The notes under the pieces were generated by a model. The model was not told where the DNA came from and made no database searches. It saw only the letters and a program-made list of their open reading frames with translations. Source: a virus. From it: 20,430 nt of DNA. Within the stretch, counting starts at the first letter, position 1, and every line of letters starts with the position of its first letter. Positions 1 to 10,897 of this stretch are shown piece by piece. The translations under genes were made by a program, and so were the position numbers. The DNA is taken from IMG/VR virus record IMGVR_UViG_3300025666_000059, positions 1-20,430 of that record; one strand, given 5' to 3'.

Positions 1-718
1 CAATATTTCTCATGCTAAAATCATTATCAACAACAGTAATTAAATTTGTTGAGCCTGAATAAGTAAGTTTGTCAATATCTCTATTAAAACCAACTATTGC
101 ATTTCCTGAGCTAACTAATAATTCATTAGTAATAGCAACATTACCTCTAACAAAATAAGTTGTATTTGCAGTCAAAGTAATAACACCAACTGAAGGAGTA
201 CCAAAATCAGACTCCTGAGAAACCTCAACCATATTTGTACTATTAATAGTTGGTGTAAAAACAACGCCTGAACTAATAACGCCTAAAGGATCTCCAACCG
301 TTCCGTCACCTTTTAACGTTGCATCGTGAGCGACTGAGGTTAAAACGCCTGTAATATCTACAACAACGCCAATAGGGTTTGGATCAAAGTAAAAGCCTGT
401 ATTATTTCCAAGCCATGTCTCCATTAAATCAGGAGTAATAAAATGTAAGCCCGTATCAGGGTTTAAAGTTGTTGTATAAACAAAAGAACTAACGCCTACT
501 TGCTCTCCTGTAATATCTCTTAAGACACCTAACTGATTAATATTTTCATTGCCTCCGTTGTTTATTATTGGTACTGAATTAAAGAAAGTAAAATTATCGT
601 CTTTATCTCTTTTCCAGCGTAAATGGTCTATAAAAGTTGAAAAATATTCCTGTTTTGTAGTCGTATCAATAAAACGAATTGACCGTTTGTTTACTATTAT
701 TTGAGTTTCGTTTGCCAT
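1..718 (-). CDS. Partial tail fibre or tail spike protein, N-terminal 239 residues
   Basis: The reading frame opens with ATG at 718, directly after the TAA of the upstream gene (719-721), and stays open to the left edge, so the C-terminus is missing. Residues 1-60 are polar, with a basic and aromatic patch near 33-45. Residues 135-147 read LKGDGTVGDPLGV, a linker type that recurs in phage tail fibre and baseplate proteins. From about residue 165 there are short beta strands with regularly spaced Gly, Asn and Thr (for example ITLTANTTYFVRGNVAI), which resembles the start of a parallel beta-helix. I infer a virion host-recognition protein, possibly with polysaccharide-degrading activity in the unseen part. 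The class is fairly supported, the enzymatic role is a guess. Confidence 0.72.
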   Translation of the reverse strand, partial: MANETQIIVNKRSIRFIDTTTKQEYFSTFIDHLRWKRDKDDNFTFFNSVPIINNGGNENINQLGVLRDITGEQVGVSSFVYTTTLNPDTGLHFITPDLMETWLGNNTGFYFDPNPIGVVVDITGVLTSVAHDATLKGDGTVGDPLGVISSGVVFTPTINSTNMVEVSQESDFGTPSVGVITLTANTTYFVRGNVAITNELLVSSGNAIVGFNRDIDKLTYSGSTNLITVVDNDFSMRNI

Positions 719-1582
719 TTATTGAGTATTATAAAATGATTTTTGGTTTTTTGTGCGAATACCAAAAGAGGCTTTTACATCTGCTAACCTACTTCCAGGA
801 CGGTACGTAAACTCTGCGCCCTCATCTAATACAACAGGAACATCAAATAAATTATAATAATGGTTTGTTTTATTATGGTCTGAGATAAACGCCTCGTCTT
901 GATTTAAAAACTGAAATTGTAAACGCCTTGTGAACATTACTAATAATGGTATTGTTTTTAATTCATAAGCAACTAAATTTTCTCTTTTAACCTTTTGTGA
1001 AACTCTACCCTTTGTAATTAATTGAACGATTTCAGTATTATTTTGAGGATCTCCAAAATAGCCGTTTAATCTTAATGTTGTAGTGCAATTTGAATTACTA
1101 AAATCAATATTTTCAGACTCAGAAAACGAATCAAATGTAGAACGTACTCTAATAGTATTTGATGCTGAACTAATAGAAAACTCACTTAAATCGTAAACTC
1201 CCCAATCGTAACCTCCTACAATTCCACTAATTGTAAATTGTACTTTTATTGTATATTCTCCAATTCCATAAGTTGTTAAATATTGTTTCCAATCAAACAT
1301 AAAACCAACAGCCAAAGTATCCTGATTAAATACTGCAACCGTTCCTAAATTAGATAAAGCGCCTGTAGTTCCGCACTTTTCAATAGTAAACGTTACAATA
1401 TCTGTTAGTGCTGATCTTTTAATAAAGGCTAATTCAATATCATTTTTATAGGAATCATTAGAGGTTGATGAAGCAAGTACCATAAAATTCTCACAGCACC
1501 CCAATTTTACGCCTCTGTCCTCCTCAGAAAATCCTTGTGGAAATCTTATAATTGATACTTTCTCCTTAAACCTGTAATCCAT
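719..1582 (-). CDS. Unknown protein of the tail-tip gene cluster (287 aa)
   Basis: I do not recognise a family. The protein is soluble, with no signal peptide or membrane segment. The middle (about 60-170) is rich in alternating hydrophobic and polar residues with many Ser, Thr and Asn, as in beta-sandwich virion proteins. Cysteines occur as a CC pair near residue 29 and singly later. The C-terminal third is more basic and ends with a motif around TYRPGSRLADVKASFG. Its ATG at 1582 follows three bases after the stop of the 91-residue gene, and its TAA abuts the ATG of the fibre gene, so all three are probably co-translated. Position between receptor-binding-like genes suggests a minor tail or fibre-connector protein; this is inference from context only. 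Confidence 0.75.
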   Translation of the reverse strand: MDYRFKEKVSIIRFPQGFSEEDRGVKLGCCENFMVLASSTSNDSYKNDIELAFIKRSALTDIVTFTIEKCGTTGALSNLGTVAVFNQDTLAVGFMFDWKQYLTTYGIGEYTIKVQFTISGIVGGYDWGVYDLSEFSISSASNTIRVRSTFDSFSESENIDFSNSNCTTTLRLNGYFGDPQNNTEIVQLITKGRVSQKVKRENLVAYELKTIPLLVMFTRRLQFQFLNQDEAFISDHNKTNHYYNLFDVPVVLDEGAEFTYRPGSRLADVKASFGIRTKNQKSFYNTQ

Positions 1583-1585
1583 GTT

Positions 1586-1861
1586 TTAATATTTTTGCGA
1601 TGGCCCTTGAAACTTTTCAGAATCACTTTCAACCGCATTTTTATAATAGTTTGCTCCAGCAATGTTATCTAAATAAATTTCTAATTCATCTTCGGTCAAA
1701 AAAGCTAATATGTTTGGTTGTCCTGTTACTAATTCGTTTACGTCTATTGGCCCAACATAACCAAAAAGGACAAAACCTAACTCTCCCTCATCACTATCGT
1801 AAACAAGAAACCACCTTTTCGGATTGTCTTTAGTGATTTGATTAATAGTATTTTCTAACAT
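1586..1861 (-). CDS. Small acidic protein of unknown function (91 aa)
   Basis: This short protein starts at an ATG at 1861 behind a purely A/T leader, the usual initiation context in this window. It is acidic, with Trp, Phe and Tyr scattered through it (WFLVYDSDEGELGFVLFGYVGP in the first half, split here only for description). It ends with a hydrophilic tail rich in Ser, Glu and Lys. No signal peptide or membrane helix is evident. It sits 18 bases after the BspA-like gene and 3 bases before the 287-residue gene, in a compact run of tail-tip genes. It may be a chaperone or small structural partner of a neighbouring fibre, but nothing in the sequence names a function. Reality of the gene is supported by strand, spacing and lack of alternatives. 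Confidence 0.68.
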   Translation of the reverse strand: MLENTINQITKDNPKRWFLVYDSDEGELGFVLFGYVGPIDVNELVTGQPNILAFLTEDELEIYLDNIAGANYYKNAVESDSEKFQGPSQKY

Positions 1862-1879
1862 AATTTTATTATTTTTATT

Positions 1880-2776
1880 TTAAACTGGCCCACCGTCAGT
1901 TATTGTCCATAAATCTGTTATCAATCCAGCTCTTGCCGTTGCTGGAGCGCCTGAACTATATTGAGCAGTTCCCGCGTGAAAATTTACTGAATTGTTATGC
2001 GTTTGTCCTTGCCACGCTACTAATAATAAGTCATAGTTAGTAGTTGAAAATGCTGACGCATCTAACATTTGTGTTGCGCTTGTTAAACTTGAAATGTTAA
2101 AGCTACTTATATCTTGGTCAAAAGCTGTAGTTCTTAGCATGTTAGTCATATCCGTAACGTTTGACGTATCAAAGTTTAGAGGTTTATTAAATACCGTTGC
2201 AGTCCTAAACATTGCATTCATACTTAAAACGTTTGACGTATTTGTAAAAGTAACATCACTATTAAATGAGCTACAACCGAAAAACATAAAAGCCATAGTT
2301 GTAACATTTGAACAATCAAAAGTTAAAGGACTATTGAAACTTGAACAACCTCTAAACGCTCCATACATATCCGCTACTAATGACGTATCGGGACTATCAG
2401 TATACGTGCCGACCATATTACTACAAAGATAAAATGCAAATTGCATAGTACCCCATTGATTCGTACCCCAATTATCTATTGATGAAAGTTTTAATCTATC
2501 ACCACCACCGCCAAATCTAATTCCTGAAAACGAGCCGTCCAAAGAAATTTGATACGTTCCACTTGATGCGTAAACGTGAGTAAGTTCGGATTGATTGTAA
2601 GTCGTAATAACGTCACTATTGCCGTCACCCCAATAAACGGTCATTGATGTCGCACCATTCTGCAAAGGTAAAACAAAAGTATCTGAAGCACTTCCAGGTT
2701 GTGTTGTGTCAACCGTCATTTTAAATTCAGTTGAAACAACAGGTACTGACTCAAATATAAAAGGGTTTATTATCAT
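1880..2776 (-). CDS. BspA-like (DUF285) leucine-rich repeat protein with PKD-like domain
   Basis: Residues about 20-85 form a PKD-like beta-sandwich: VYWGDGNSD at 47-55 and THVYASSGTYQISL at 66-79 match the WGDG and H-Y-GTY signatures. Residues 136-240 hold about five repeats of 24-25 residues with the pattern M-x-x-MF-x-x-(A/C)-x-x-FN-x-x-(L/V)-x-F-x-x-SNV, which is the BspA or DUF285 type of leucine-rich repeat. The end (NYDLLLVAWQGQ and ARAGLITDLWTITDGG) is the usual C-terminal cap of such Bacteroidota proteins. Family members are mostly secreted surface proteins with signal or sorting sequences; this one has neither, which fits a virion part. Its ATG overlaps the TGA of the upstream receptor-binding-type gene (ATGA at 2773-2776). 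I infer a tail-tip ligand-binding protein. Confidence 0.87.
   Translation of the reverse strand: MIINPFIFESVPVVSTEFKMTVDTTQPGSASDTFVLPLQNGATSMTVYWGDGNSDVITTYNQSELTHVYASSGTYQISLDGSFSGIRFGGGGDRLKLSSIDNWGTNQWGTMQFAFYLCSNMVGTYTDSPDTSLVADMYGAFRGCSSFNSPLTFDCSNVTTMAFMFFGCSSFNSDVTFTNTSNVLSMNAMFRTATVFNKPLNFDTSNVTDMTNMLRTTAFDQDISSFNISSLTSATQMLDASAFSTTNYDLLLVAWQGQTHNNSVNFHAGTAQYSSGAPATARAGLITDLWTITDGGPV
2057..2371 (-). repeat. DNA-level trace of BspA-like repeats, period 72-75 bases
   Basis: The repeat units of the BspA-like protein are still visible in DNA. The string aacgtttgacgta occurs on the plus strand at 2156-2168 and again at 2228-2240, exactly 72 bases apart, and a diverged copy (aacatttgaacaa) begins at 2303, 75 bases further on. 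These spacings equal 24 and 25 codons. The similarity suggests expansion by duplication of a unit, and gives a substrate for gain or loss of repeats by recombination. Confidence 0.7.
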
Positions 2777-3273
2777 AACCTGTAACCGTTAATTGTTATT
2801 GTTAAACCAGCTCCAGCAATAGTTGCTCCTATCTGAGTACATTCTACAGTAATAATTTTATCGTTATTTAAAGTAGGCGTTGATATAACTGCTGGTACTG
2901 TGGCTGTTGTTGAGCTTGTTTCCCCAGGGTCAATAGTAATTTTAGTACTTAAAACTGAAACCCCGTCCATTTTAATATCAAAAATAAGCTCTGCATCTGT
3001 TGGTGCTGTCTTAACATTTGCTCTAATCTCAGTTGCATAAAATTCGTATGGTATTGGAATTACTACATCAAATGTTGAAACGGTAAAAGGCGTTGTTAAA
3101 TCAGTTGCCGCAAATTGTATAGGAGCTGTTGCAAATGTTTTTAACATTACAGAAATTGGAACTTTTTGACTTTCATAACTTGTACCCTCTATAAATTGGT
3201 CAATATCAAAAAATGATGCTGTATCTATTACAGTTGTTGTAACTGGATATTCGTTTATTTGATCTAATGCCAT
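2773..3273 (-). CDS. Small tail fibre or receptor-binding-type protein (166 aa)
   Basis: The first 45 residues (INEYPVTTTVIDTASFFDIDQF and then YESQKVPISVM) resemble the short attachment segment found at the start of many phage fibre and collar proteins. Residues from about 60 onward form a beta-sandwich-type domain with the recurring phage pattern IRANVKTAPTDAELIFDIK, a Ser/Thr turn (GETSSTTATVPAVI), and a closing VECTQIGATIAGAGLTITI. Such domains are common in virion proteins thought to contact host surface glycans. The start is ATG at 3273 behind an A/T leader, and the stop overlaps the next start as ATGA, suggesting coupled synthesis with the BspA-like protein and perhaps a joint structure. 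Structural role is likely; the specific receptor is unknown. Confidence 0.75.
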   Translation of the reverse strand: MALDQINEYPVTTTVIDTASFFDIDQFIEGTSYESQKVPISVMLKTFATAPIQFAATDLTTPFTVSTFDVVIPIPYEFYATEIRANVKTAPTDAELIFDIKMDGVSVLSTKITIDPGETSSTTATVPAVISTPTLNNDKIITVECTQIGATIAGAGLTITINGYRL

Positions 3274-3292: not shown

Positions 3293-5740
3293 TTATGCTT
3301 TCTGCTTTATAACTGTGCCTATTCCTTTTCGTGCTGATGTTCTTTTTAATACACCCCATGTTGTACGTTTTCCCTCTACTAATATTGGCGTTGAGAAAAT
3401 CCTTACGCTCAAAGATACATTATTTACGTTTATTAAAGAGGTATCAATTAAACATTTTACCGTTGCAACATTCGCTGGAGAAATTACTAAATCTAAAAGC
3501 GTGTTTCCTGAAATTGGTTTTAATGGATTTGCGTTAATGTTTCCCTGTGGTAAAACGCTTGAAATAACCCAACGATTTCCAGCCTCATAGTCCTCAATAG
3601 TTACTTCCGCCCATTCATCAGAATAATTTGCCGTTGACCACGTTAAAACATATTCAACCTCTACTAATTCATTTTCAGGTAAATTTGTTGGCGTTGTTAA
3701 ATCTGATAAAACGGTAAATTGTCGCGTTGTTGTAATATTTGGGTTATCCTCATACGGTCTAATCTTAACAGCCTGATGATTGAAATCGTCAACTCCATTT
3801 ACAGTTGTATAATATGAAAGTCTTAAAATCCAATCTCCAAGTCCTGAGCCGTAAACTTGCCAATTTTTATTATCTCCATTAAAACTCTGTAAAATATCAA
3901 AGAAATCGTTAGATACATTTGACTGCTCTAACCAATAACGCCAATCATTTAAGAAACCGTAACGTAATTTAACTCCATATTTTCCAGCTATATCATTTGC
4001 AGTATTTCTAACTAATTCTATAACGTTTCTATCTGATGTTGGAGGTAAATTAAACCCTCTTGAAATTGAAAAGTTAGGTTGAAACTGTCCCGAAATATTG
4101 ACAACATTACTAAAACTAAAAAAGTTATTTTCTAAAGTAAATTCTTGCTCTGTTACAGTATTATATGCAAATATTCTCGCTCTAATTCCTTCGTAATCTA
4201 CATTGTCAATTAGTCTAAAATTACTTTCGTATAAAACATCGTCCTCTGTTGTTGTATTTGGATCTGCTGAGGCTGTAATATTGTTTAAATTATGATCGTA
4301 TAAATTTTGATCTACAACGTCAGGTATTTGAACACCAATTACAGGCGCGTCAATGTTATCTTCATCAAATAAAGTTAAAGAAACCCTATCAACTGAAAAG
4401 CCTGTTAAGGCAACATTTGCTATTGAAATCCATAAAGTTGACTTTCTGCCGTCATCTTGAATTTGAGAAAACATTGCAGTTGCGTTTGCATTTGGTATTA
4501 CATCGCCTTTAACTGTTAATTGATTTGCTCCTGTTAACTCAAATTTTAAGTTTTGGAAGTCCCATTGCGCACCGTCTGAATTAACGCCACTTTGATTACC
4601 AATGTAAGGCAGTCCAGCATAAACAGTTGGATCTATTAAACCGTCAGCGTTAAAATCAACTTCAGGAGCGTTAATCAAAAGATTATTACCTAATGAGGGC
4701 AGTCTATTTTGGTAAAACTCAGCATCTATTGGCCTCCAAACTAAACCAATATTATAAATACTTGTAGGGTTAATTTGATTAGGTGCGTTTATTACTGCTG
4801 TAAAAGATGAAGTTGCTGAGTAATCTAAAGCCTCTATAACATCACCTAAAACATTATTCCAAACAATAGATTGAACACTATAATTATTTGGCGCACCGTT
4901 ATAATTCTCGTTATATTCGCCTGTATTAGCCTCTAAATTTGTTGTAGTATCTTGTAAAACTCCGTTTGGATTTCCATATTGAGCAAAGCCTTTTATATTA
5001 ATAATTGGTGCAACGTGACCGGCATTCTCATAAACAGCTGGTATAATAAAACCGTCTTGAATAATAACATACTGCAAAAATTTATAAGTTACTTTGAAAT
5101 CATTGTACCCTCCTGTATTATTTGCAATATATGTTATATTTACGTCCTTTATTAAACCGCCTGACTTATTACCTATTTGAGTCATTGGTAAAACATCTGT
5201 AATTGTCATTGCGTCAACATCTTGTAATTCAAAACGGTTTAATTCGCTATCAATTAAAGAGTTTAAAGAAACAGTACCATTTGGCGTTAAGTTAAAATAA
5301 AACTCTAAAGCGTTTGGTAATTTATCAGCAACAACGCTCATTCCTGATAAAATACCGTCTAAAGGAAAAGTTGTACCGTTTCCAGGGGTACCAAAACCGC
5401 CAATGTATGGCCCTAAAGGAGCGTTTAAATATAATTCGTTGCCGTTTATATAAGTTATTGTGCTAACCCAACTTTGAGCCTGACTATTTTGACCGTTTGC
5501 GTAAACAGTTGCAGTTATTGTAATTATATCACCTTCTAAAAATCCAGCATCAGCCCAACTTGCATTATCAAATTGAAGCCAATAATTAGATCCTTGATTA
5601 TAATATGTAATTTTATTTGACGTTCCACTTCCAGCCTGAAAACGAGTAGTAAATAATGACTCACCGTCTACCCAATCACCACCATTTGCATAAAGTGAAT
5701 TAAGCGTATTATATTGCTCTGTAACTATCTGTAAAGGCAT
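3293..5740 (-). CDS. Large tail-tip or fibre structural protein (815 aa), family not recognised
   Basis: The 815-residue protein has no signal peptide or membrane segment. It is mostly beta-type sequence, rich in Asn, Thr, Gly and aromatic residues and poor in Cys, as expected for an assembled virion component. Residues 362-370 read DFNADGLID, a DxNxDGxID loop like an EF-hand or dockerin calcium site; there is only one copy. Residues 575-660 contain a Trp- and Tyr-rich part (NDWRYWLEQSN). The C-terminal 20 residues are strongly basic. It lies after the tape measure and the 577-residue protein, where baseplate, hub or central fibre proteins usually are. Its ATG at 5740 is 3 bases from the end of the 67-residue gene. 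A major tail-tip component is the best inference. Confidence 0.78.
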   Translation of the reverse strand: MPLQIVTEQYNTLNSLYANGGDWVDGESLFTTRFQAGSGTSNKITYYNQGSNYWLQFDNASWADAGFLEGDIITITATVYANGQNSQAQSWVSTITYINGNELYLNAPLGPYIGGFGTPGNGTTFPLDGILSGMSVVADKLPNALEFYFNLTPNGTVSLNSLIDSELNRFELQDVDAMTITDVLPMTQIGNKSGGLIKDVNITYIANNTGGYNDFKVTYKFLQYVIIQDGFIIPAVYENAGHVAPIINIKGFAQYGNPNGVLQDTTTNLEANTGEYNENYNGAPNNYSVQSIVWNNVLGDVIEALDYSATSSFTAVINAPNQINPTSIYNIGLVWRPIDAEFYQNRLPSLGNNLLINAPEVDFNADGLIDPTVYAGLPYIGNQSGVNSDGAQWDFQNLKFELTGANQLTVKGDVIPNANATAMFSQIQDDGRKSTLWISIANVALTGFSVDRVSLTLFDEDNIDAPVIGVQIPDVVDQNLYDHNLNNITASADPNTTTEDDVLYESNFRLIDNVDYEGIRARIFAYNTVTEQEFTLENNFFSFSNVVNISGQFQPNFSISRGFNLPPTSDRNVIELVRNTANDIAGKYGVKLRYGFLNDWRYWLEQSNVSNDFFDILQSFNGDNKNWQVYGSGLGDWILRLSYYTTVNGVDDFNHQAVKIRPYEDNPNITTTRQFTVLSDLTTPTNLPENELVEVEYVLTWSTANYSDEWAEVTIEDYEAGNRWVISSVLPQGNINANPLKPISGNTLLDLVISPANVATVKCLIDTSLINVNNVSLSVRIFSTPILVEGKRTTWGVLKRTSARKGIGTVIKQKA

Positions 5741-5947: not shown

Positions 5948-7673
5948 TTATTAATATTGTTTTAGTGTTATTGCCCTCTGTTGAGCTAACTGAGTATTCA
6001 ATTTCTGCTTCTTTAGAATCGTTAATAAAATCAAATGTAAGCAATTTCAAATAAACTCCGTTTTCATCTTGTACGTAATTATTATTTATAATCATGTCAA
6101 AATTAGCAGTTGATAAAGGTATTCTCGCTGTTTGAATTTTCTGAAAATTCTCTTTTACTTTGTTCTTTGCGTGATATTTATTTGCAATTGGTAAAGCTCC
6201 AATTTTTGTTAGATAATTTGCTGGTTGTTTTCCATTTGTCGCCCATAGCATCTTAGAAGTTGAGTAATACTGTTGAGAAATTTGTGTTACTCCAATTCTA
6301 CCTACAATTTTAGAAACTAAATTAGAATTTCCGCCAAAGAAATTAATAACATTATCAGCAGTTATTGCAAATGGTAAAGATTGCTTTTCAACCCATGTAA
6401 GGGACTCTTTTCTATTGCCTAATGCAAAGGGTAAATTAATGTCAACTAAGCCTTTAACAACGAATAAATCAACATTTGAAGTCGTTACGTACTCTGTACT
6501 CCATTCCATATCTAAAGACTCCATTCTATCCATAGTGTGAGAATCTGAAATATCATATTGCCAATGTAAATAATAACGTTTCCAGGCTTCATCAATATTA
6601 AAAGTCCATTGATTTTCTCTAACCTCCTGTAGATTTAAAGTATTTATTATTTGTAAACCGCTTTGATTAATCCAATAGTTTTCCTCTTCTAAATAAACAG
6701 TTGTACCAATTATTCTAATTTGGGACTGTGTAAAATCCTCTAAAAAGTCAAATAATCTGCCTAAAGTTGGCGTTGTATCTCTTGCTGTTGGATAGCCTTT
6801 AGAATACGATTGAGTATTTAAACTAAGTAAATTTTTCCAAATTGATTTATTTGTTTTCTGTAAAGGAACAGGCATTAAAGTTAAATTATTTAACTCATCT
6901 AATACCGTACTTGAAAACGTTAACCCTAAATTTGCGCAACCTTTATTTATCAATTCTCTAACTGTAGATCCTTTTAACTTTTTAACAGGTGGAAAAATTA
7001 ACTCTATTATTTGTTTTGTTAATTTAATTAACGCAACAATTAAAGCAACAGTATAAATAATACTTGCAATTAATTTTAATGATGCCGTTATTATTTCTCC
7101 TATATTAAAAACGGGTAATCCTGATGCTGATATACTTGGAATACTTGCCTCTTGTACGTCTGAAATCCTATCTGTAATATCATTAATACCTTCAATTAAA
7201 GCCTTAGTTAATGTAAAAGTTGAGATAGCCAACATTATAAGCATTTCAGCCTGATTATCAGGTATAATTAAATAAGGTATTTGAACAGTACTTATTGGAT
7301 TTGTTTTGTTTATAACCTCAAAAGATAAACCGTTTATTTGCTCTCTAAACCAATTTATTGACCGTCTACGCTTTATTGAAACTTCTATTTCACTATCTCC
7401 AAAACCGCTAATTTTTGGGTTTTGTTGTAAGTCTATATAATATTCAAGAACTGAATTACCAACCTGTATAATAATTGGAACGCCCTCAAATATACCAAAC
7501 TGCTCAATATGTTGTAAAACAAGATACTTTGCCCTGTTAGATAATACAATAGAATCTGTATTTAGTTCAGCCTCTTGTATATCGCCTCTCCAATTCATTC
7601 TTATGCCAATCTCATCAGCGTTAACAGGTCTGAAACTTTCTCCAGCAATAAAATATGTAGTTTCTAAGCTCAT
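5940..7673 (-). CDS. Tail-tip protein with two hydrophobic segments, distal tail or hub candidate (577 aa)
   Basis: This gene follows the tape measure, overlapping its stop as ATGA (7670-7673), the place where distal-tail and tail-hub proteins are encoded in long-tailed phages. Residues 1-130 look like a compact beta domain. Residues about 143-160 (MLIMLAISTFTLTKALI) and 194-229 (including IASIIYTVALIVALIKL) are strongly hydrophobic and helical, separated by a soluble stretch, which is unusual for a tail structural protein. Residues 300-577 return to mixed beta sequence with many aromatics (YYLHWQY near 367-373). I infer a tail-tip protein that may touch or enter a host membrane during infection. 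The tail role comes from position, the membrane role from hydrophobicity only. Confidence 0.75.
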   Translation of the reverse strand: MSLETTYFIAGESFRPVNADEIGIRMNWRGDIQEAELNTDSIVLSNRAKYLVLQHIEQFGIFEGVPIIIQVGNSVLEYYIDLQQNPKISGFGDSEIEVSIKRRRSINWFREQINGLSFEVINKTNPISTVQIPYLIIPDNQAEMLIMLAISTFTLTKALIEGINDITDRISDVQEASIPSISASGLPVFNIGEIITASLKLIASIIYTVALIVALIKLTKQIIELIFPPVKKLKGSTVRELINKGCANLGLTFSSTVLDELNNLTLMPVPLQKTNKSIWKNLLSLNTQSYSKGYPTARDTTPTLGRLFDFLEDFTQSQIRIIGTTVYLEEENYWINQSGLQIINTLNLQEVRENQWTFNIDEAWKRYYLHWQYDISDSHTMDRMESLDMEWSTEYVTTSNVDLFVVKGLVDINLPFALGNRKESLTWVEKQSLPFAITADNVINFFGGNSNLVSKIVGRIGVTQISQQYYSTSKMLWATNGKQPANYLTKIGALPIANKYHAKNKVKENFQKIQTARIPLSTANFDMIINNNYVQDENGVYLKLLTFDFINDSKEAEIEYSVSSTEGNNTKTILING

Positions 7674-10600
7674 CGTTTTACCTTAAATCTTGATGTTGTA
7701 GTTTTACCGCCTTGTATTTTATGGTTTTCAAATACCATGTAATTAGATAGCATTTCAGCAGTATTATTTGACTCTTTAGGTTGGTTTAAAATAGCCTTTT
7801 TAACGTCAATCATTTCAGCTTTTAAAGAACTTAACCCATTAACTAACTCAGCATTATCAACTTTAGTTACTAACTGCCCTCCGTCCATATAATTGCCTAA
7901 TCTGTGTTGCTCCATTACTTGTGCAACATGATCATTAGAAACGCCTCCTATCATTGCGTTTTGTTTAGCTGTCATTATTCGCTCGTTATCATGTAGTAAC
8001 ATTACGCGCCCTCCATTACTATCTAAAGGATTTGTTGCCTTTCCTGTGTCCTCCATACCTTCATAAGCTGAGGCAAGAGACGCAATAAATTGATTAAGTA
8101 CCGCCTCTGATGTTATTGCCTTTGCCAACGCTTCGCCTGATGTTGTACCCTCAACAGATAAGTTTGCATTAAACGCTTTTAATACATTTGTAACCATTAA
8201 AATACGTTGTTTACGCTTTTCTAATTCAGCTGATTTACGCTCAGACTCAGCCGCTAATCTGTTTTCTTCTGCTAATGATTCCTTTGCCTCAATACTTCCG
8301 TTTTCTGCAAGTGTTCTAAATGTTTCAGCCTGTTTAATATGAGCCTGAGTTTCCCTGTCTAATGCCTTTATTCTTTCGTCAATTAATGCGATAGCAAAGT
8401 CTTGTGAAAACTGTAAAGCATCTTGACGCATTTTAGTTAATTCTTCAAGGTTTTTTATATCAAATTCTTCCCCCTCAACATCAACCTCTGCTGATAATTC
8501 AGCTGGTGCATCTAAACTATTAATATCTAATAAATCTTTTTTTTGTTTATTAGCCGCTTTTATATTTTCAATATATTCTGCATAAGTTTTATTTATATCT
8601 TCTAAAGCCTCATCATAATCCTCTATTGCCTCTGTTGCATTTTTTGTTGCCTTAGTACCGCCTTCTAACTCTCCTGAATGGTCTGCAATTCTTACTGTAT
8701 AATCGTGTATTTCATCACTTGTCCCTTCAATAGCCTGTTGAAAAGCCGCCTCCGCTTGTTCTTTAAATACTATTAAATCTAAGTTTTTCTTTAAAGTTGC
8801 ATTATAAGCGTTTTGATTTGCTGTTAATAAAATACTTCTGTCGCTTCCTCTAATACTTGTATCATTTTTAATAGCCTCAGCTCTTGTTTTTACATTTTCT
8901 TTCTCTAATTCATTAAACTCTTTTAAATCAGAAATTTGGTTTGTTCTTAAATTCCTTTCGTGTTCTAATCTTTTTAATTTGCTTTCTTCTAATGCTTTTA
9001 TTTTTTCATCAAATTCAACTTGACCGCGTTTTAACTCACCGTTTGCTAATTGTAATTCAAGTTTTTCGCGCTCTGCTTTTATCTCAGCGTTAATTGGAGC
9101 TAAAACCTTTTCAACTGATTTATCACTAACTTCACGAGCAGCAGCCAATAAATCCTCTTGCCTTCTTAATTCAGCCGTTCCACTCGCTAAATCATATAGT
9201 AATTTTAATAATTCTAAACCAGCAGTAATAGCTAAACCAAAACCAATACCCTTTAATGCTTTGCCTAAATTCTTTGCGCCTGTTGTAGCACCTTTTGCGC
9301 CTTTTCCTATTGATTGAAACGCTTTCCCTAAACCCTTTAAGCCTCCAATACTTTCGCTAATCTTGATTGCTTTCATTGCAACCTTAAATTGAACAATAAG
9401 TACAACAGCTTTACCAACCCAACTAATAAGAGTATCAAAATTATCTGCTAAAAATGCTATTCCATTTCTTAACTTTTCTCCAACGCCTCCAGCTTCATTC
9501 ATTTTCAAGATCCAACCTTCATAAGCTGAGGTTAAAAGTTTAATTGCACCGCCTAAAGTATTTCTTTGAGTATCAGCCATGTCTTTAGCCGCATTGTCAC
9601 TATCTAATAATTTATCTGTCAACGTTCCAACAGCACCTTGATTTTCTGCTAAAATAACACCCAATGTTGCGCCACGTTTACCAAACAATTCAAAAGACTT
9701 TGCCGTTTTATCACTTGCACCGTTTACCTCCTCTAAGGCTTCATTGAAAGTTAAACCAGCTTTTTTAGAATCTAAGAACATATTTCTTAAGCCTGTTCCA
9801 GCTGAACTTGCATCTATTCCACGATCTGTTAAAGTTCCTAATAATGCTGTTGTTTCTTCAATAGAGAATCCAGCGTTTTTTGCAACAGGAGCAACAGATG
9901 ACATTGCCGTTGCGAATTTCTCCATATCTAAAGACGAAGAACTAAATGACTTTGCCATTACATCTACAACTCTTTGAGTTTCATCAGCAGATAAGCCAAA
10001 ACCTCTAATTGTCGCACCTGTAACCTCTGCGGCACGTCCTAAATCAGTCCCTGTTGCCTCAGCTAATGATAAAGTTGCTTCGGTAACCGCCTCAATTTCT
10101 GACATTGAGAAACCTAATTTTGCGTATTCTTTTTGAAGCTCAGAAACCTGAGAGGCAGTAAAAGTTGTTGTTGCGCCTAAATCTTTTGCCTGTTCAGTTA
10201 ACGCGCTCATTTGATCAACGCTAACACCTAAAACAGAAGCTAAATCCGCTTGTCCTTGCTCAAAGTCTTTTACAATATTAAACGCACCTTTTAAAGCTGT
10301 AACAAGTCCTGTAACTCCAGCAGTTATACCTAATGCACTTCCTAAACCTCTTAACGCGCTTCCGTAATTACCTATATTGTTTTTTAATTTTCCGAGCTTA
10401 GAGGCATTTTTATCAAGTATTTTATTATTCTTGTTTAATTCGGCATTGAGCTTTTTGATAGCCTCTTGACCTTTTTTAGTAGTAAAGTTTACTTTGTCTT
10501 TAGCTATTTTAATAGCCGCATTCCTTGCTCTTAATTTCTCTAATGTATTTATTTGTTTATCACCTAACGCAACCTCAGTTTTAATAGCTTTGTTTTGTGC

Positions 10601-10897
10601 CGCCTGTTGTTGTTTTAACTTTTCCTTTTCAGTTAATAACTGCTTATCAATTTGTAATCTATTTTTTGCGTTTTGATTTGATTTTTCAGTTAAGGCGTTA
10701 AACTGCTGAACTGTTTTAACATCTTTAGGCTTTACTGTTGAAACTCCTTTTTTTAGTTTTTTCCCTGTTTCTGCAACTGCTAAAACTGCCGTTTTTAACG
10801 TATTAATATTAGCAATAGTAACCTCAATTTCTTTGTTAAAGTCCCTTAATACGCCTTCGGCTACGATATCGCCTTTCTCAATTCTACCTTTAGCCAT
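7670..10897 (-). CDS. Tail tape measure protein, TP901 type
   Basis: At 1075 residues this is the longest gene, in the expected place. Residues 20-170 are coiled-coil-like, rich in Lys, Gln and Leu. Residues about 210-465 match the TP901 tape-measure core: ASVLGVSVDQM, LGATTTFTASQV, LAEATGTDL, then FELFGKRGATLGVILAENQG. Hydrophobic helices lie near 490-508 and 550-570, and further charged helices follow at about 600-730 and 850-900. The protein spans the tail lumen, sets tail length and is released during DNA ejection. The usual estimate of about 0.15 nm per residue gives a tail near 160 nm. The ATG at 10897 overlaps the previous gene by 8 bases. No muralytic motif is obvious to me in the C-terminal part. 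Confidence 0.96.
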   Translation of the reverse strand: MAKGRIEKGDIVAEGVLRDFNKEIEVTIANINTLKTAVLAVAETGKKLKKGVSTVKPKDVKTVQQFNALTEKSNQNAKNRLQIDKQLLTEKEKLKQQQAAQNKAIKTEVALGDKQINTLEKLRARNAAIKIAKDKVNFTTKKGQEAIKKLNAELNKNNKILDKNASKLGKLKNNIGNYGSALRGLGSALGITAGVTGLVTALKGAFNIVKDFEQGQADLASVLGVSVDQMSALTEQAKDLGATTTFTASQVSELQKEYAKLGFSMSEIEAVTEATLSLAEATGTDLGRAAEVTGATIRGFGLSADETQRVVDVMAKSFSSSSLDMEKFATAMSSVAPVAKNAGFSIEETTALLGTLTDRGIDASSAGTGLRNMFLDSKKAGLTFNEALEEVNGASDKTAKSFELFGKRGATLGVILAENQGAVGTLTDKLLDSDNAAKDMADTQRNTLGGAIKLLTSAYEGWILKMNEAGGVGEKLRNGIAFLADNFDTLISWVGKAVVLIVQFKVAMKAIKISESIGGLKGLGKAFQSIGKGAKGATTGAKNLGKALKGIGFGLAITAGLELLKLLYDLASGTAELRRQEDLLAAAREVSDKSVEKVLAPINAEIKAEREKLELQLANGELKRGQVEFDEKIKALEESKLKRLEHERNLRTNQISDLKEFNELEKENVKTRAEAIKNDTSIRGSDRSILLTANQNAYNATLKKNLDLIVFKEQAEAAFQQAIEGTSDEIHDYTVRIADHSGELEGGTKATKNATEAIEDYDEALEDINKTYAEYIENIKAANKQKKDLLDINSLDAPAELSAEVDVEGEEFDIKNLEELTKMRQDALQFSQDFAIALIDERIKALDRETQAHIKQAETFRTLAENGSIEAKESLAEENRLAAESERKSAELEKRKQRILMVTNVLKAFNANLSVEGTTSGEALAKAITSEAVLNQFIASLASAYEGMEDTGKATNPLDSNGGRVMLLHDNERIMTAKQNAMIGGVSNDHVAQVMEQHRLGNYMDGGQLVTKVDNAELVNGLSSLKAEMIDVKKAILNQPKESNNTAEMLSNYMVFENHKIQGGKTTTSRFKVKR

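Follow-up and report, generated by a model that had tools for sequence, protein, structure and literature searches.

The gene at 1880-2776 (-) of the virus DNA analyzed here probably encodes an exchangeable adhesin at the tip of a tail fiber, which would be mounted by an N-terminal docking tag and would work like the gp37/gp38 pair of T-even phages while lying outside that family. The DNA is a 20430-bp IMG/VR virus record, called the window in the following. It also appears fairly likely that the tag, [IL]INP[YF]x[FY], and the fiber-head domain of the neighboring gene form a general plug-and-socket system that mounts swappable lectin-like, repeat or enzyme tips on the tail fibers of phages and prophages of Bacteroidota, Pseudomonadota, cyanobacteria and others; the product of 1880-2776 would be one plug of this kind. 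The features discussed are the following:

1880-2776 (-): candidate tagged adhesin of 298 aa, consisting of tag, PKD-like domain, DUF285 repeats and conserved C-terminal cap
2753-2776 (-): proposed N-terminal docking tag MIINPFIF, residues 1-8
2471-2725 (-): PKD-like constant domain, about residues 18-102
2057-2464 (-): DUF285/PARCEL repeats of about 24 aa each, in which the twin phages diverge (about residues 105-240)
1880-2047 (-): conserved C-terminal cap, about residues 244-298, ending with WTITDGG
2773-3273 (-): partner gene for a 166-aa fiber-type protein, with ATGA overlap to the adhesin gene
2776-3120 (-): C-terminal domain of the partner, residues 52-166, proposed socket for the tag
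1586-1861 (-): 91-aa gene, also present together with the DUF285 gene in five relatives (75-90% identity)
3293-5740 (-): homologue of Fpv5/FpV9 gp11 (phrog_12056), conserved tail protein
719-1582 (-): homologue of Fpv5 gp14 (phrog_12180), conserved, on the far side of the variable slot
2-718 (-): N-terminal part of a fiber-like protein, open at the window end, with 63-72% identity to proteins encoded on crAss-like contigs in which the DUF285 gene is present too

The DUF285 repeat protein and its position in the tail block

The BspA-like repeats that an earlier note had recognized from the letters were borne out by Pfam, which identified DUF285 in three stretches of the ORF (E 3.9e-43, 146.5 bits against a cut-off of 25 bits). 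The repeat unit is about 24 aa long with FN-type centers at residues 147, 171, 195 and 219, and the repeats in the DNA are spaced 72-75 nt apart. The second domain named in the note is present in the N-terminal part, but its PKD_4 match stays under the Pfam cut-off (E 8e-4, 19.8 versus 27 bits), and therefore the wording "PKD-like" is appropriate. Hydropathy analysis agreed with the reported lack of a signal peptide: it revealed neither a hydrophobic signal segment at the N-terminus (the best mean over 15 residues was 1.45, at residue 1) nor a signal peptide or lipobox of the secreted BspA type in the N-terminus MIINPFIFESVPVV. At the other end the ORF contains no further domain beyond the DUF285 cap.

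The gene order of the window is that of a siphophage, with terminase, portal region, capsid and tape measure (7670-10897) followed by homologues of gp9, gp10 and gp11 of the Flavobacterium siphophage Fpv5. Past gp11, Fpv5 continues with gp12-gp13 and gp14, and the window with 2773-3273, the DUF285 gene, the 91-aa gene and the gp14 homologue. The Flavobacterium siphophages Fpv5/FpV9 and tant8-1 share with the window the order gp8-gp11, variable slot, gp14; unlike in the window, their slot carries gp12 and gp13, in which Pfam found no DUF285 domain. The DUF285 gene thus occupies the variable slot of an otherwise conserved tail-tip block of Flavobacterium siphophages. Thus both the tail-block placement and the ATGA coupling to the upstream gene claimed in the note hold, the latter as a real overlap of 1880-2776 with 2773-3273. 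The 91-aa gene lies beside the DUF285 gene in the relatives L003, L004, L005, L006 and L008, sometimes before and sometimes after it, and possibly encodes a dedicated accessory protein or chaperone.

The DUF285 gene, the 91-aa gene and the fiber N-terminus (2-718) were also found together, with 61-84% identity, in two contigs with a crAss-like portal (35% identity to crAss001). The occurrence of the same module in siphophage and crAss-like contigs indicates that it moves between unrelated phage types. The crAss-like contigs sharing it with the siphophage of the window are L028-L032 and L033 (88 kb and 17 kb).

A BspA-like surface protein that is secreted or modifies the host, encoded as a moron and present in the tail operon by chance, is a very unlikely reading of these data. 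DUF285 proteins are mostly bacterial surface proteins and recombination next to the gene, as described below, is typical of accessory genes. Against it stand the absence of a signal peptide and of any domain C-terminal to the DUF285 cap, the ATGA coupling to a fiber-type gene, the sharing of the tag with genes beside annotated tail fibers and the presence of the same module in unrelated virion blocks. A putative role of the adhesin candidate in the virion is supported by its context, namely the position in the tail block, the missing export signal, the coupling to the fiber gene and a switch of alleles within the gene in a twin phage. DUF285 proteins have already been annotated in phages, for example in the jumbo phage pir03 (PMC7765460); in the accessible part of the open-licence literature we found no proteomic proof of such a protein in a phage virion.

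Linkage of the tag to the partner domain

The linkage was analyzed from both sides. A tag-first scan of viral contigs for DNA coding for M[IL]INP[FY]I[FY] yielded 58 contigs. The ORFs of at least 60 aa with this sequence belong to unrelated families, and nearly all of them are located directly downstream of a gene ending in a common domain of about 115 aa, usually with the 4-base overlap ATGA as the junction. The upstream gene 2773-3273 of the window ends in the same domain.

For the partner-first scan only an alignment of the partner domain (A2) was used against viral contigs and bacterial genomes, leaving the tag out; its seeds were ten partners of tagged genes, that of the window among them. 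In the loci of the best 80 of at least 592 matches, a sample of related loci that leans to one subfamily, there were 83 non-redundant downstream genes, of which 68 encode [ILVM][ILVM]NP[YF] among residues 1-12 and 72 among residues 1-45. With both scans joined, 97 of 114 downstream genes had the tag; among the 2926 other ORFs of these loci it occurred in 3. These figures describe one large subfamily, since tagged genes supplied the partners for A2 and the loci are related and restricted to the best 80 of at least 592 matches. Among the hosts of the genomic loci are Pseudomonas, Mesorhizobium, Variovorax and MAGs of several phyla. The pair in the window conforms to the rule: MIINPFIF fits [ILVM][ILVM]NP[YF]xx, and the upstream gene bears the partner domain (the A2 HMM scored E 2.5e-47 on the L003/L026 partner, which is identical to the partner of the window, itself an A2 seed).

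Among the close DUF285 relatives the tag is present wherever the partner is present; L007 and L008 lack both. Even when a small gene separates them from the partner, the DUF285 proteins of L006 and L005 keep forms of the tag (MLINPYIY and MLINSYIY). The 88-kb crAss-like contig contains two genes with tag forms (MLINPFIY and MLINSYIY) after one partner. The two relatives lacking INPF, L007:1309-2331 and L008:9986-11869, have another N-terminus in common, PLEFEIPNLIDPLFKM, perhaps a second type of anchor, which could not be generalized beyond L007 and L008.

Several named phages follow the same arrangement. In Rhodobacteraceae phage LS06-2018-MD05 the partner domain is part of a "virion structural protein" and is followed by a FISUMP protein starting with MIINPYVF, and in Synechococcus phage S-CRM01 a collagen-like "tail fiber protein" serves as partner ahead of MSLIIINPFRF. 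The tag rule is also obeyed in Mwe-JY26 (MTTIINPFRA), MinM2 (MLLDPYRF) and Tiera (GGFLLNPWRF), and Sphingomonas phage Carli (MSMMIQPSRF) fits it loosely. In the Microcystis phage Mwe-JY26 the tag heads a protein annotated as D-alanyl-D-alanine carboxypeptidase (L215:3285-4859), which presents an enzyme as payload. Flavobacterium phage FL-1 carries the most common type of payload domain as part of a longer, untagged fusion protein (L108:3569-4723). In Schitoviridae with a distant partner domain (Pokken, PB119 and RiverRider) the next fiber genes carry no tag. Agrobacterium phage 7-7-1, whose solved fiber weakly matches the partner, has no tagged gene in its fiber region, and the sole regex match in the stretches examined is a reverse-strand ORF elsewhere.

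Payload exchange and the allele switch in a twin phage

The proteins downstream of the partner form 37 clusters without blastp similarity to each other, 26 of which have the strict tag among the clusters counted. The payloads identified by Pfam behind the tag include Laminin_G_3 (LamG), Fib_succ_major (FISUMP), DUF285, Gly_rich_2, ArabFuran-catal, beta-propellers and others. This changes the assignment in the earlier note, which had called the upstream gene receptor-binding-type: its product looks like the fiber head or socket, and the role of payload falls to the DUF285 protein, whose family is one of at least 37 seen behind this partner.

We identified 104 pairs of loci with 80-95% identical partner DNA and unrelated payloads. 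Across the best 14 of these, identity is 96-100% over the 24 nt of the tag and falls to about 30%, the level of chance, over the 120 nt after it. The near-identity of the tag followed by DNA at chance level demonstrates that the payload is exchanged at the tag.

This exchange, and the nearly identical tag DNA of close pairs, would also be expected if the shared N-terminus were merely a recombination joint at the DNA level or a signal for translation start, a reading that we consider most improbable. The codons of the tag vary synonymously across all payloads, and the tag spans phages and prophages of several bacterial phyla. It is also found 3-40 residues inside proteins and away from the partner gene (L005 and L006); 2-40 extra residues precede it in some proteins, as in S-CRM01 and Tiera. 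The synonymous variation, the internal tags and the tags of L005 and L006 argue that the tag is held at the protein level.

A switch within the DUF285 gene itself was revealed by a twin of the window phage, the IMG/VR contig G001 (29.6 kb), which is the same phage over most of the shared DNA. The two are identical between 6616 and codon 70 of the DUF285 gene, and at the terminase-capsid end they differ at 1 position in 5110 bp, so that the shared backbone of about 9 kb contains one mismatch overall. From codon 70 (nt 2569), in the PKD-like part, identity drops sharply and stays low through the 91-aa gene; past this gene the contents of twin and window are wholly different. In the twin, the DUF285 gene and the 91-aa gene are followed not by the gp14 homologue of the window but by a gene for a protein of 824 aa that weakly resembles tape measure proteins (L026:5364-7838).

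Between the two DUF285 alleles, 58 codons differ synonymously and 32 nonsynonymously, and one codon is inserted or deleted; the substitutions are of all types, with 69 of 114 at third codon positions. An assembly chimera is less likely, because a contig from a second metagenome bears the same switched allele and bridges the switch from codons 42-70 into the other allele. A diversity-generating retroelement was rejected: no reverse transcriptase (RVT_1) was found in the window, the twin or the analyzed contigs of relatives, and the substitutions show no adenine bias. The switch thus represents recombination with a diverged allele. Repeat duplication was not seen as a source of the variation between the twins, which consists of substitutions except for the one codon indel. 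The duplication-prone repeats suggested in the note therefore fail for near-identical phages, in which an allele is exchanged by a crossover after the constant N-terminal part with mostly synonymous changes. Among more distant relatives the repeat number does vary, from 4 to about 17 units (about 17 in L008).

Proposed docking at the fiber tip and comparison with known systems

The structure of both proteins was predicted with AlphaFold2. The DUF285 protein gave a mean pLDDT of 85.6, with residues 1-12 as the only segment below 50. A tag that becomes ordered only upon binding its partner would look disordered in this way, which lends weak support to docking, low confidence at termini being common. 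The fold of the remainder was predicted with confidence; its fold matches in the PDB were weak, and the DUF285 protein has no sequence match there. For the partner, AlphaFold2 predicted a beta domain (pLDDT 79.7). Its best matches in the viral library BFVD were collagen-like, tail-fiber and minor-tail proteins; matches in the PDB were weak (best E 3e-3), led by the head of a Bacillus collagen-like protein (BclA) and including TNF-like trimers. The partner matches no PDB chain by sequence and its domain no Pfam family. That it forms a trimeric fiber head is our guess from these models.

In the proposed mechanism the ATGA overlap would allow both proteins to be made together. The product of 2773-3273 would trimerize into the fiber head and act as a socket, and MIINPFIF (residues 1-8) would dock onto its C-terminal beta domain. 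Docking would display the surface of the DUF285 repeats at the tail tip of the virion, where it may bind a ligand on the host surface and influence host range. The constant tag and N-terminal part would let recombination swap payloads with the socket unchanged.

Alternatively, the tag may mount a virion protein that adheres in a general way to mucus, particles or glycans in the surroundings of the host, with the product of 3293-5740 as the receptor binder. The payloads do include broad glycan-binding and enzyme folds, as well as the annotated carboxypeptidase of Mwe-JY26. Records named as derivatives of FpV9, a phage of Flavobacterium psychrophilum, on another host strain were compared with it (L043 10744-13257 versus L041 and L042; the derivative history was taken from record names and host fields). 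They differ from FpV9 by single substitutions, several of them in gp11 (F567L, S464P), the homologue of 3293-5740. These substitutions point to gp11 as a host-contact protein that may also set host range. The invariant neighbor may therefore contribute to the choice of receptor, and adhesion by the DUF285 protein could be accessory. Near-identical phages differ at the payload, as is typical of host-range determinants, and we consider general adhesion alone rather unlikely compared to an exchangeable fiber-tip adhesin.

If the tag docks, a few N-terminal residues would reveal tail-tip adhesins among unannotated phage genes, including receptor binders that homology misses since the payloads are unrelated. 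Docking would also explain how DUF285, LamG, FISUMP and hydrolase domains reach virions, would provide a simple rule for natural switching of host range and predicts a peptide-domain interaction between two small proteins. Modular phage adhesins as such are known; a short tag common to dozens of unrelated payloads, or its fixed partner, was not found described in the accessible part of the open-licence literature.

Proteins with DUF285/PARCEL/BspA-like repeats have been described from cellular microbes and mobile elements, as proteins of the membrane and the surface; the part of the source available mentions none from phages (Roske et al. 2010, PMC2996958). According to the same part, the repeats are about 24-25 aa long, variable in sequence and horizontally moved, with an antisense ORF over them. 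The window shares the unit of about 24 aa and has an antisense ORF, 2094-2432 (+), over its repeats. It differs in that the repeats come after a phage fiber tag and that the palindromes in the DNA appear weak (few, imperfect inverted repeats of 14-19 nt). The partner resembles the collagen-like and C1q/TNF-like fiber heads of phages: its domain caps collagen repeats in gp23 of S-CRM01, and the BFVD and PDB matches point in the same direction. It differs from them by having neither a PDB sequence match nor a Pfam family.

In T-even phages gene 38 adjoins gene 37, and 1880-2776 is likewise a separate gene directly downstream of a fiber-type gene; capping of the fiber is a proposal for the window protein. 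In Salmonella phage S16 and E. coli phage PP01, gp38 caps the tip of gp37 via conserved hydrophobic residues, and its variable distal receptor-binding part decides host range (PMC6851490, PMC12892980). Common to both systems would be a fiber protein and a separate tip adhesin with N-terminal attachment and a variable distal part. Membership of the gp38 family was rejected for the window protein, which has no PDB sequence match and consists of PKD-like and DUF285 domains. In gp38, attachment relies on a helical bundle with tryptophans, and a polyglycine sandwich is present; the window protein would attach by a peptide of eight residues to a socket that consists of a different beta domain, and the payloads are of many unrelated folds.
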